Positions 44,621 to 63,527 of a DNA stretch of 64,000 bases are shown here, piece by piece. This stretch comes from Saccharomonospora glauca K62. Lineage in GTDB: Bacteria > Actinomycetota > Actinomycetes > Mycobacteriales > Pseudonocardiaceae. Numbering within the stretch: the first letter of the stretch is position 1; every line of letters begins with the position of its first letter. Position numbers and translations under genes: made by a program. A model generated the notes under the pieces. It ran no database searches, was not told the origin of the DNA, and saw only the letters and a program-made list of their open reading frames with translations. The DNA is taken from positions 3,466,524-3,530,523 of the forward strand of contig NZ_CM001484.1 of NCBI RefSeq assembly GCF_000243395.2, in the 5' to 3' direction.

Positions 44621-45988
44621 ATGCAACTGATGCCGGTCACCGACTCCATGTTCCTCGCCCTCGAAACCAGGGAGCACCCCATGCACGTCGGTGGCCTCGC
44701 GCTGTTCACACCTCCACCGGACACGGGCCCCGACTACCTGAAGTCGCTGCGGAAGGAGCTGCTCACCGACTCCGACGTCCGGGACGTGTTCCGGCTCCGG
44801 CCCGCCACCCCACTGAGCACCCGCGGGTTTTTGTCCTGGGTCGAGGACACCGAGCTGGACCTCGACTACCACTTCCGGCACTCGGCGCTACCCCGGCCGG
44901 GACGTGTCCGCGAACTGCTCGAAGTGACGTCACGCTGGCACAGCACGCCGCTCGACCGGCATCGGCCGCTGTGGGAGATCCACCTCGTCGAAGGGCTCGC
45001 CGACGGCAGATTCGCCGTCTACACCAAGGTGCACCACGCCCTCATGGACGGCGTGTCGGCGTTGCGCCATCTCCAGAGCGTCCTCACCGACGACCCCGAC
45101 GCGCGGGACTGCCCTCCCTTCTGGGGCTCCCGCGAGCCACGGCGGAACCGGGAACGCCCCGGTCCGCACCTGTCCACGTGGTTGCGGAACGGCCGTCGCG
45201 CGCTGGAGGAGTTGGCCGGCATGGCACCGCTCGCCGCCCGCGTGGCTCGCGAGGCGTTCCGGGAACACCGGCTCACCCTGCCGCTGCGGGCGCCGAGGAC
45301 GATGTTCAACGTCCCGGTGGGAGGCGCCCGCCGGTTCGCCGCGCAGTCGTGGGAGCTGGAACGGCTCGGCGCCGTCGCCTCGGCCGCGGGAGTGTCCCGC
45401 AACGACGTGGCACTGGCGATGTGCTCGGCCGCGTTGCGGGCCTACCTGCTCGACCACGACGCCCTGCCCGACGTGCCGCTGGTGGCGATGGTCCCGGTGT
45501 CCCTGCGCCCGCGCGTGAGCGAGGCGACCACGGGCAACCGCACCGGTGCGCTGTTGTGTGACCTCGGCACCCACCTGCCCGATCCCGCCGATCGGCTCGC
45601 GGTGATCCGGCGGTCGATGGCGAACGGCAAACGCCTGTTCGGTGACCTGTCGCCGTGGCAGGCGTTGCTGTTGTCGGCGTTGAACGTCGCCCCGTTCGCC
45701 GCCGCGCCGCTGCCCGGATACGTCACGCACACCCGGCCGGCGTTCAACATCGTGATCTCGAACGTGCCCGGCCCACGCTCGCACCTGTACTGGAACGGCG
45801 CCCGCCTCGACGGCCTCTACCCGGCGTCGGTGCTGCTCGACGGGCTGGCGCTGAACATCACGATGACCACGAGCGGCGACACGCTCGACATCGGCATCAC
45901 GGGCTGCCGCCGCCGCGTGCCGCACCTCCAACGCCTCCTCGCCCACCTGGAGGACGGCCTGAAGTCCCTGGAACACGCGGTGCTGTAA
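44621..45988 (+). CDS. Wax ester synthase/diacylglycerol acyltransferase (WS/DGAT)
   Basis: This 455-residue enzyme transfers acyl groups from acyl-CoA to diacylglycerol or fatty alcohols for storage lipid. The active-site HHALMDG is at residues 138-144. The second family region with MVPVSLRPR and NRTGALLCDLGTHLPDPADRL and the PAFNIVISNVPGP motif are intact. The ATG at 44621 starts MQLMPVTDSMFLALE. It ends 2 nt before the composite inverted repeat at 45991. Confidence 0.95.
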   Translation: MQLMPVTDSMFLALETREHPMHVGGLALFTPPPDTGPDYLKSLRKELLTDSDVRDVFRLRPATPLSTRGFLSWVEDTELDLDYHFRHSALPRPGRVRELLEVTSRWHSTPLDRHRPLWEIHLVEGLADGRFAVYTKVHHALMDGVSALRHLQSVLTDDPDARDCPPFWGSREPRRNRERPGPHLSTWLRNGRRALEELAGMAPLAARVAREAFREHRLTLPLRAPRTMFNVPVGGARRFAAQSWELERLGAVASAAGVSRNDVALAMCSAALRAYLLDHDALPDVPLVAMVPVSLRPRVSEATTGNRTGALLCDLGTHLPDPADRLAVIRRSMANGKRLFGDLSPWQALLLSALNVAPFAAAPLPGYVTHTRPAFNIVISNVPGPRSHLYWNGARLDGLYPASVLLDGLALNITMTTSGDTLDIGITGCRRRVPHLQRLLAHLEDGLKSLEHAVL

Positions 45989-45990
45989 CC

Positions 45991-46124
45991 GCGTGTCCGC
46001 AGATTAGGTACGCGTGTCCGCAGGTTAGGGACGCGTGTTCGCACTTCTCGTACGCGCCGCCGTACGGGAACTGCGAACACGCGTGCGCAGGCTGCGGACA
46101 CGCGTACGCAGCCTGCGGACACGC
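45991..46124. repeat. Composite inverted repeat of 21-bp units (copy 1)
   Basis: Two 64-nt arms (45991-46054 and 46061-46124) with a 6-nt loop CGCCGC. Each arm consists of three units of 21 bp with a constant core ACGCGTGTYCGCA and a variable 8-bp part. Right-arm units are the complement of left-arm ones but with different variable parts, so the cores pair and the variable parts pair only partly. The element fills the whole gap between the convergent WS/DGAT and amidase genes (stops at 45988 and 46128). It probably acts as a bidirectional terminator. A related copy lies at 63280-63470. Confidence 0.85.
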
Positions 46125-46127
46125 CGG

Positions 46128-47507
46128 TCAGTTCCACGGGTTGACTTCTTCGACGAGTTTCGCCACGGCCAGCACCAGGTCGTCGGAATGCCGGGGGCCG
46201 ACGATCTGCAGTCCCACGGGCAGTCCCTCGGAGGTGAACCCGGCGGGCACGGAGACGGCCGGCTGCTGCGTCATGTTGAACGGGTAGGTGAACCGCGTCC
46301 ACTCGGGCCAGCTTCCGTAGCCGCCGCCGGGCGGCACGTCGTGTCCCACCTCGAACGGGACGATCGGCACGGTGGGCGTGAGGAGAACGTCGTAGACCGT
46401 GTGGAACTCTCCCATGTGGATGCCCAACGCGGCCCGTTCGGCGGTGGCCTCCAGGTAGTCGCGCGCGGAGTAGGTCCGGCCACGTTCCCACACCTCGCGC
46501 AGACCGGGGTCGACCTTCTCCTCCGAACCCGGCGGGAACGAGTCGAGCCACTGCGCGGCCCCCGCCGACCACAGCACGCCGAACGCCTCGATCGGGTCGG
46601 TGAAGCCCGGATCGACGTCCTCGACCTCTAGCCCCGCCTCGCTCAGTTTCGCCACCACCGACACGACGACCCTCGCGATCTCCGGATCGACGTCCACGTA
46701 CCCCAGATCGGCCGAGTAGGCCGCCCGCAGCCCCCGTACGTCACGACGCACGGCCTCGCGGTAGGCACCGGGCGGCGGCGGCAGTGCCGACGGATCGCGG
46801 TGGTCGGGCGCGGAGAGCACGTCGAGCAGCAGCGCCACGTCGTCCACGGAGCGAGCGATCGGCCCCGCGTGTGAGAGCGGACCGAACGGGCTCGCCGGAT
46901 ACAGGGGGATACGGCCTCCCGTGGGCTTGAAACCCACCACGCCGCAGAACGCCGCGGGGATGCGCACCGACCCGCCGCCGTCCGTGCCGACGGACACCTC
47001 CCCCATCCCGGTGGCCACCGCCACCGCGCTGCCGCCACTCGACCCGCCGGGGGTCAACGCCGGGTTCCACGGGTTGCGGGTGATGCCGTTCAAGGGGCTG
47101 TCCGTCACGGCCTTCCACCCCAGCTCCGGCGTGGTGGTCTTGCCGAGCAGCACGAGGCCGTTCTCCCGCATCCGGGCGGTGACGGGGCTGTCGACCTCCC
47201 ACTCCTGGTCGCGGTCGATGCACAGCGACCCCCGCAGGGTCGGCCAGCCACGGGTGAGGAACATGTCCTTGATCGACGCGGGAACGCCGTCGAGCCACCC
47301 GATCGGGTTCCCCTCCCGCCACCGCTCCTCGGAATCGCGGGCCGCGTCGAGTGCCGCCTCCGGGTCGACGAGCGTGAACGCCCGGTAGTCGGGGTCGCGT
47401 TCGGTGATCACGTCGAGCGCGGCTCGGGTGGCCTCGACGGGCGACAACTCACCGGACGAGTACGCGGCGACGAGTTCGCTCGCGGTCAGCGGGGACGCTC
47501 TCGACAT
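46128..47507 (-). CDS. Amidase (amidase-signature family)
   Basis: A 459-residue amidase with the Ser-cisSer-Lys triad: Lys in GVPASIKDMFLT, and serines in TPGGSSGGSAVAVATGMGEV and the downstream GTDGGGSVRIPAAFCG. It hydrolyses a C-terminal or linear amide of unknown identity. The ATG at 47507 has GAGGAGA upstream. It starts 41 nt after the D-2-hydroxyacid dehydrogenase stop and should be in that operon, under the ATTGT-type operator at 48554. A role in releasing ammonia from an amide intermediate of the catabolic cluster is inferred. Confidence 0.92.
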   Translation of the reverse strand: MSRASPLTASELVAAYSSGELSPVEATRAALDVITERDPDYRAFTLVDPEAALDAARDSEERWREGNPIGWLDGVPASIKDMFLTRGWPTLRGSLCIDRDQEWEVDSPVTARMRENGLVLLGKTTTPELGWKAVTDSPLNGITRNPWNPALTPGGSSGGSAVAVATGMGEVSVGTDGGGSVRIPAAFCGVVGFKPTGGRIPLYPASPFGPLSHAGPIARSVDDVALLLDVLSAPDHRDPSALPPPPGAYREAVRRDVRGLRAAYSADLGYVDVDPEIARVVVSVVAKLSEAGLEVEDVDPGFTDPIEAFGVLWSAGAAQWLDSFPPGSEEKVDPGLREVWERGRTYSARDYLEATAERAALGIHMGEFHTVYDVLLTPTVPIVPFEVGHDVPPGGGYGSWPEWTRFTYPFNMTQQPAVSVPAGFTSEGLPVGLQIVGPRHSDDLVLAVAKLVEEVNPWN

Positions 47508-63275: not shown

Positions 63276-63279
63276 CCAA

Positions 63280-63470
63280 CGCGTGTCCGCAGCCTACGTA
63301 CGCGTGTCCGCACCTTAGGGACTCGTGTCCGCAGTTTGGGGACACGTGTTCGCACTTGCGGTACACCGGGGTCCCCTGCCGTGCGGCCCGAACGGAAACC
63401 CGGTGTACACAACCTGCAGACATGCGTACGCAATCTGCGGACACGAGTGCACAACCTGCGGACACGGCAG
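63280..63470. repeat. Composite inverted repeat of 21-bp units (copy 2)
   Basis: The left arm has four tandem 21-bp units starting at 63280, 63301, 63322 and 63343 (core ACGCGTGTCCGCA with changes), then a 10-bp inner stem GTACACCGGG (63362-63371) paired with CCCGGTGTAC (63400-63409) around a 28-nt loop. The right arm holds about three complementary units ending near 63470. It lies between the TPP enzyme (stop 63275) and the FadB-like gene. The units are more divergent than in copy 1 at 45991. Confidence 0.8.
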
Positions 63471-63507
63471 GGCCACCGGCCCCGCATGCGCGGGGGCGGT
63501 GGCCCTC
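63470..63507. terminator. Hairpin terminator between convergent genes
   Basis: Arms AGGGCCACCG-G-CCCCGC (63470-63486) and their complement (63491-63507) form a 16-bp stem with one G-G mismatch and a 4-nt ATGC loop. It directly abuts the composite repeat and is 21 nt from the FadB-like stop codon. Confidence 0.75.
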
Positions 63508-63527
63508 GTCAGCAGCCTCGGGGAGAC

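Follow-up and report, generated by a model that had tools for sequence, protein, structure and literature searches.

Helically phased 21-bp repeat arrays at gene ends in Saccharomonospora glauca K62 and related genomes, and a possible role as protein-bound boundaries

Introduction

In Saccharomonospora glauca K62, two convergent genes, encoding a WS/DGAT protein and an amidase, are separated by little more than a large inverted repeat made of 21-bp units. This junction raises the question of what the repeat is, and whether it acts in the transcript as a hairpin or on the DNA as a set of protein-binding sites. The window, which is the whole 64,000-nt stretch of DNA analyzed here, contains the following features:

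44621..45988, plus strand: WS/DGAT gene (ORF, Pfam), whose stop is followed by the left arm
45992..46054, plus strand: left arm, three 21-bp units with the 10-mers CGTGTYCGCA at 45992, 46013, and 46034, pointing away from the WS/DGAT stop
46055..46060, no strand: centre of 6 nt separating the arms
46061..46123, minus strand: right arm, three 21-bp units with 10-mers at 46072, 46093, and 46114 (plus coordinates), pointing away from the amidase stop
46128..47507, minus strand: amidase gene (ORF, Pfam; start from the codon-usage gene caller), whose stop is followed by the right arm
63279..63469, no strand: another two-armed family member, located between convergent genes (gap 63276-63527, 252 nt), with four units left and three right (footprint defined by at most three mismatches per core)

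The preliminary description had read the junction as a hairpin of 21-nt units, and the hairpin is real: its arms (45991-46054 and 46061-46124) are 64 nt each, 83% complementary, and 6 nt apart. The 2 nt left over at the WS/DGAT stop (gene end 45988) and the 3 nt at the amidase stop (gene end 46128) are also as described. The cores had been called identical, which holds for the inner ones and fails for the outermost core of each arm (CCGCGTGTCCGCA, one mismatch; CGGCGTGTCCGCA, two mismatches). At 21-nt spacing there are three units on the left and two full units on the right, or three per arm with mismatches allowed, and the element measures 132 bp between its outer 10-mer ends. Pfam confirmed WS_DGAT and Amidase for the flanking genes, and an Rfam search of 45000-47000 returned just three matches, all far under their gathering scores.

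A dispersed family of 21-bp arrays

A search of the 4.56-Mb K62 genome found 162 exact copies of the core ACGCGTGTYCGCA and none of the reversed-pattern control. These copies group into 76 clusters, so the element is not unique, and the dispersed intergenic family that had been proposed is supported. Two of the 76 clusters lie mostly within called genes, compared with a coding fraction of 87% in the fetched DNA. A strict two-unit pattern was also matched in four contigs of Saccharomonospora sp. NB11.

Across 115 arms of the K62 genome, the unit consists of CGTGTYCGCA, a variable octet, and usually ACG. Most arms have three units (66) or four (28); the others have two (9), five (6), six (3), seven (2), or 13 (1). 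An imperfect outermost core is typical throughout the family, in which the first unit begins at CGTGTCCGCA and the three bases before it are variable. Units are also ordered within arms, as a T at unit position 6 is found in 0/115 first, 6/115 second, and 47/106 third units. When a two-armed cluster is defined by a core on both strands, each with one mismatch or none, 39 of the 76 clusters are two-armed and 37 one-armed.

Several members depart from this layout. Two two-armed elements, at 719147 and 4057556, have outward-facing arms. Outward-facing arms in L058 2981-3086 and L105 2981-3128 flank a short inverted centre with GTGCCC/GGGCAC, the reverse of the usual layout. Some clusters are neighbors 0.6-1.5 kb apart (616130/617276 in L055, 260718/262206 in L048, and 897401/898046 in L061), as if placed at both ends of a single gene.

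A stem-loop within each 21-nt unit (CGUGU...GYACG) would explain why arrays start with CGTG and end with ACG. It was rejected as a general rule because in three other genomes (G008, G001, and G004) the units retain both 10-mer and 21-bp period and mostly lack the ACG end.

Placement at gene ends

The neighbors of the 76 clusters are convergent in 33 cases, co-directional in 34, divergent in eight, and unclear in one; gene calls come from a codon-usage script, with approximate starts, small genes possibly missed, and some contexts possibly wrong. The preliminary description had tied the family to convergent genes. As an enrichment this stands: besides the 33 of 76 clusters, the exact core occurs in the window, which was not chosen around arrays, at 2/8 convergent junctions and 0/47 others. 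The 34 co-directional and eight divergent clusters therefore count in part against the link as first proposed. In the fetched loci, arrays occupy 31/63 convergent, 32/201 co-directional, and 7/56 divergent gene pairs, rates that are biased upward since the loci had been picked around arrays. Array-free convergent gaps of the fetched set have a median of 16 nt, and arrays therefore fill junctions that are otherwise tight.

Among arms with a same-strand upstream gene, 60 of 80 start 1-15 nt past its stop and point away from that gene. In co-directional gaps, 30 of the 34 elements are closer to the upstream stop than to the downstream start (sign test, 3e-6); 28 lie within 25 nt of the stop and four within 25 nt of the start, and the stop-proximal arm points away from the gene in 28. 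Of the 37 solo arms, 24 fit this placement, with a same-strand stop at most 25 nt upstream of them, and the remaining 13 are placed otherwise. Few genes carry arrays. With 76 clusters against some thousands of genes, the family is therefore not a general terminator.

In one genome (G008, L115 2440-2945), an array extends into the end of the WS/DGAT gene, where the usual last codons are replaced, the stop lies inside the repeat, and the array is partly masked.

Unit spacing and the phase between arms

The units of an arm are spaced strictly. Neighboring exact units less than 42 bp apart stand at 21 bp in 118/118 distinct K62 pairs and in 45/45 pairs in other loci of the genus, and exact-unit spacings of 19, 20, 22, and 23 were found neither in K62 nor in those loci. 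Allowing one mismatch yields seven odd spacings in K62 loci, ranging from 35 to 68, several of which span two arms.

Facing arms are separated by distances that increase in steps. In 37 inward-facing elements, the innermost opposing 10-mers lie 18, 27-28, 38-39, 48, 58-60, 70, 79-82, or 92 bp apart, which gives a Rayleigh R of 0.93 at 10.5 bp, one turn of B-DNA (the Rayleigh p values presume independent elements, which is only partly true). Because arms sharing a single 21-bp lattice would produce multiples of 21 trivially, elements with related loops were merged. The 20 merged loop clusters have an R of 0.92 at 10.5 bp versus 0.50 at 21 bp, and this maximum was reached by 0/500 uniform draws.

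The stepping recurs in four other species, where at least 66 elements among the matches listed give an R of 0.71 with a best period of 10.3-10.5 bp (one innermost match per element, with G010 included to about 2.05 Mb). Among the same matches, 16 of 21 off-lattice elements fall 2.5 bp or less from the half-lattice (6 of 16 residues expected there); the other five are away from half-turn positions, and the 16 include several related copies. Mismatch rules differ between the K62 set of 37 inward-facing elements and the ortholog set described below, and one element may show different inner distances in the two.

An RNA stem or a DNA array

If the element worked in the transcript, as a bidirectional terminator or a 3'-end stabilizer, a stem of 10-13 bp helices parted by symmetric internal loops would stop polymerase or shield the mRNA from 3' exonucleases. 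The window element does fold very stably as RNA (-109.1 kcal/mol versus -63.9 +/- 4.0 for shuffles; z -11.2; 0/200 shuffles as good), and the position of arrays after stop codons also speaks for such a role. Co-directional gaps contain two-armed elements as well (11 '++' and eight '--' clusters), with no second gene for the second arm to serve, as suits a stem. The near-invariant core is uninformative about pairing, and the variable octets do not behave as paired strands. In the 33 elements with at least three units on each arm, inter-arm octet identity is 0.455 versus 0.494 for shuffled partners, with 1967/2000 shuffles at least as alike. Spacer identity in G226, a species of another genus, is 100 versus 102.5 expected, and the sense strand of 16 co-directional elements has 43 G-U versus 45 A-C mismatches. 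An exception is G226, with covariation at three positions where the inner unit starts (60/5000 shuffles).

Compared with an intrinsic (Rho-independent) terminator, the window element shares the G+C-rich stem and lacks the U-tract after it, as no terminator-like site with a U-tract was found on either strand of 45700-46400. Compensatory stem changes are likewise not found in the octets, the three inner positions in G226 excepted. Moreover, 37 of the 76 clusters have a single arm, and a transcript stem gives no reason for loop length to track 10.5 bp. The bidirectional terminator of the preliminary description is thus not upheld, given octets without covariation, the missing U-tract at the window element, and the one-armed clusters. 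An RNA-level role in termination or 3'-end protection is unlikely, with a chance of about one in five.

The resemblance between the octets of facing arms is slightly below chance, most clearly at octet position 5 of unit 2 (two matches versus 9.8 expected). The pattern looks as if long perfect palindromes were avoided.

The phasing between arms, the two-turn spacing of units, the freely varying octets, and the directional solo arms argue for a protein array on DNA over a stem in RNA, and the position of the arrays after stops suggests a gene-end boundary or terminator. A protein-binding array had been mentioned in the preliminary description, and the 10.5-bp arm phasing favors it while falling short of proof of binding. 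We therefore lean, with somewhat less than even confidence, toward a protein-bound, helically phased array that would act as a gene-end boundary, in preference to an RNA-hairpin terminator. The elements would be arrays of binding sites for a putative sequence-specific DNA-binding protein. Each arm would typically offer three sites two helical turns (21 bp) apart, which would place the bound molecules on one face of the DNA. Where two arms face each other, their fixed helical phase (10.5-bp steps) could bring the bound proteins into contact and join them in one bridged complex. Located just past stop codons, this complex might serve as a boundary, either assisting RNA polymerase in stopping or separating neighboring transcription. 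From geometry and position we infer the binding, the interaction of the arms, and the boundary or termination role alike.

The footprint of RNA polymerase is such that a full block at the first site would halt the enzyme before the stop codon is copied. Any block would therefore act further in, or through the joined complex. Several observations weigh against a protein array, namely the 8/76 divergent clusters, the 13/37 stray solo arms, the two outward-facing elements, the off-phase elements, ortholog spacing shifts of -5 and +3 bp, and the small number of array-bearing genes. If a protein array is nonetheless what these elements are, some bacteria would have a gene-end boundary that is built of protein and read on the DNA helix, not in RNA.

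Two dialects of the core

The same WS/DGAT-amidase junction in three deep relatives (G005, G006, and G011) has two facing arms of 21-bp units at both stops, with the different core CGAGTYGCC. At this junction, the amidase side is visible in G007, and the gap of G003 is short with no array. Pairs of CGTGTYCGCA at 21 bp number 24-316 in eight of the 12 genus genomes and are absent from the other four; beyond the genus, 2/285 further family genomes have a single hit each. Pairs of CGAGTYGCC number 40-268 in exactly the four genus genomes without CGTGTYCGCA pairs and are absent from the eight. The two dialects are therefore mutually exclusive within the genus (eight versus four of 12 genomes), and the split may reflect a single event. 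Such genome-wide dialects are expected if a trans-acting factor reads the core.

In other genera, CGAGTYGCC pairs occur in G226 (75), G117 (48), G087 (14), G251 (6), G299 (6), and G092 (3). Any match to this pair pattern is found in 38/297 genomes, many being one recurring string that resembles conserved coding sequence. Hits to the reversed-pattern controls are scattered and never exceed four per genome. Arrays of the second dialect are also located at gene ends. By the codon-usage gene calls, 13 of the 15 G226 clusters sit between convergent genes. Among 20 measured arm ends of G226, 15 are 2-6 nt away from a stop, and the arms again finish in a distinct inner unit. Arm ends in G117, G005, G006, G011, and G007 are near stops and more variable than in G226.

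The phase between arms is shared as well. In 24 second-dialect elements from six species and three genera (dropped if the inner distance exceeded 200 or a chained unit was missing on either strand), the best inter-arm period is 10.5 bp (R 0.73), period 21 gives an R of 0.21, and the value was matched by 0/500 uniform draws. Eleven further elements, taken without G226 and G251, whose distances are nearly constant, have by themselves an R of 0.56 at 10.5 bp (p 0.03) and a higher value, 0.68, at 9.5 bp. All 35 together give an R of 0.68 at 10.5 bp.

A more specific form of the favored protein array would have a dedicated, lineage-specific protein mark selected gene ends in Pseudonocardiaceae-type actinobacteria, through a face-to-face complex on phased 21-bp arrays. 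The recognition sequence would differ by lineage, and all arrays of a genome would shift together with it; the geometry and some orthologous positions would be retained. This fuller proposal is doubtful, with a little under one chance in three. If true, the two dialects would be a natural experiment in concerted, genome-wide switching of a recognition sequence.

Persistence at orthologous junctions and spread by copying

Twenty-five distinct arrays from other species (G002, G003, G008, G009, and G010) were compared with K62 by their flanking genes. Twelve lie between flanks matching both sides of a K62 array (10 K62 junctions), one has a one-flank match, one is beside a K62 array at another junction, and 11 have no match. 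Inner distances were compared in 11 ortholog pairs, including the window element. Four pairs are unchanged, four differ by 20 or 21, and single pairs by 10, 3, and -5. In the second dialect, 8/51 arrays have a flank matching next to a K62 array junction; three of the eight are from another genus, and two had been fetched for that very match. Some gene ends thus seem to have retained an array through changes in its sequence.

Copying within the genome also occurs, as is evident from one inner module that is common to several elements, among them those at 617276, 697766, 905993, and 1192237. Spread by a mobile mechanism is therefore a serious rival, according to which the family is a self-spreading intergenic repeat, like REP or BIME elements and moved by an unrecognized enzyme, whose geometry and location are by-products of copying. 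It accommodates the 11 of 25 arrays without a matching array-bearing flank in K62 and the array-free short gap of G003 at the window's junction. The 12 arrays between flanks orthologous to a K62 array speak against it, and copying alone is not expected to give 10.5-bp steps. In addition, the Y1 tyrosine transposase of REP elements (Y1_Tnp, PF01797; RAYT) had 0 matches in the K62 genome, in contrast to 5/14 positive control genomes. A mobile repeat is thus improbable, at roughly one chance in six.

Neutral tandem repetition, in which slippage and gene conversion expand and homogenize 21-bp units in tolerant non-coding DNA, would explain runs of identical units, with about 13 at 697766 and at least 12 in G008. 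It does not explain why spacing stays at exactly 21 bp though octets diverge, nor the ordered T variant of the third unit, the orientation relative to stops, or the 10.5-bp arm phasing, and we give it very little credence. The run near 697766 of chromosome contig C1 (L057 2813-3252) has the identical octet CTTCCCGC throughout its arm of about 13 units and is a recent expansion; the units of its partner arm are diverse.

Comparison with known systems

The arrays resemble REP and BIME elements in being dispersed, extragenic, high-copy, and clade-specific in sequence, with inverted pairs near gene ends, as such elements are characterized in one report (PMC2817692). The 162 cores in 76 clusters, with 2/76 mostly in genes, agree with the high-copy and extragenic character. 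A REP unit is a palindrome of 20-40 bp, mostly with a GTAG or CGTC tag, as given in a second source (PMC3733652), whereas CGTGTYCGCA-N8-ACG has no fixed GTAG or CGTC and is not such a palindrome. Binding of gyrase, IHF, or Pol I is a further mark of the REP/BIME group. The arrays are instead a 10-mer on a strict 21-bp lattice, with facing arms on 10.5 bp rather than a single palindrome. They are thus not assigned to the REP/BIME group, because the Y1 transposase search had no match and the unit differs.

Iterons of plasmid origins are direct repeats of about 20 bp; they stand at whole helical turns and are recognized on one DNA face by a protein. The arrays are likewise direct repeats at integral helical turns. 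Unlike iterons, they are spread over the chromosome at gene ends, often with two facing arms, and not at an origin (dnaA, C1:456), and we know of no initiator for them. DNA uptake sequences are ten-base words with clade dialects that occur as inverted pairs after genes. The arrays share all of these features, except that here the words are always in 21-bp arrays.

Sal boxes with TTF-I and Reb1 sites are polar protein roadblocks. The arrays also consist of short, oriented putative sites just downstream of genes, comparable to the roadblocks covered in a review (PMC10310618), and by this analogy may work in a similar way. They differ in their closeness to the stop codon, which makes a simple first-site block unlikely.

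Gyrase, or another topoisomerase, could also be the reader. A capture site of about 130 bp, two-fold symmetric and phased, would relieve positive supercoils between convergent genes, much like BIME-2, which binds gyrase according to PMC2817692. The typical length is indeed near 130 bp (132 bp in the window element; 127-129 nt in three convergent gaps of G226), and symmetry and helical periodicity recall the strong gyrase motif of 47+36+47 bp with periodic G/C, as outlined in PMC12393610. The arrays do not have this fixed layout, since their centre ranges from 18 to 92 bp, some are one-armed, and arms have 2-13 units. Wrapping also does not need a near-invariant core with dialects. Because the centre is variable and the G+C profile of the unit has no dominant 10.5-bp component, gyrase wrapping fits poorly, and a capture site is quite improbable, at about one chance in ten.

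A literature search by title and abstract opening, with most subscription papers and bioRxiv preprints outside its reach, found no description of such arrays.

Distribution along the chromosome and other repeats

In K62, 52 of the 76 clusters lie in the chromosome half around dnaA (binomial, 9e-4). A nucleoid-occlusion-like map was considered and dropped, as gene content may vary along the chromosome; the listed elements of G226, in which the origin was not located, are not visibly depleted mid-contig. The sequence GTGTCCGCA resembles a DnaA box, a reading at odds with the TTCGCA variant and with the second dialect.

Gaps of 45-700 nt were surveyed in 15 other genomes of the family, one per genus, over 14 stretches measuring 20 kb and a single stretch of 4.7 kb. 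They contained no 21-bp repeats, in a sample small enough that further dialects may exist. Repeats of other kinds were seen in two genomes. G009 has a 20-bp tandem repeat in a divergent gap (L155 19135-19411) that is, by eye, unrelated to the 21-bp arrays, and G007 has a different repeat of period 30, GGGGCACTTTCCCTGCGTT with an inverted copy, in a gap called convergent (L146 10004-10261).
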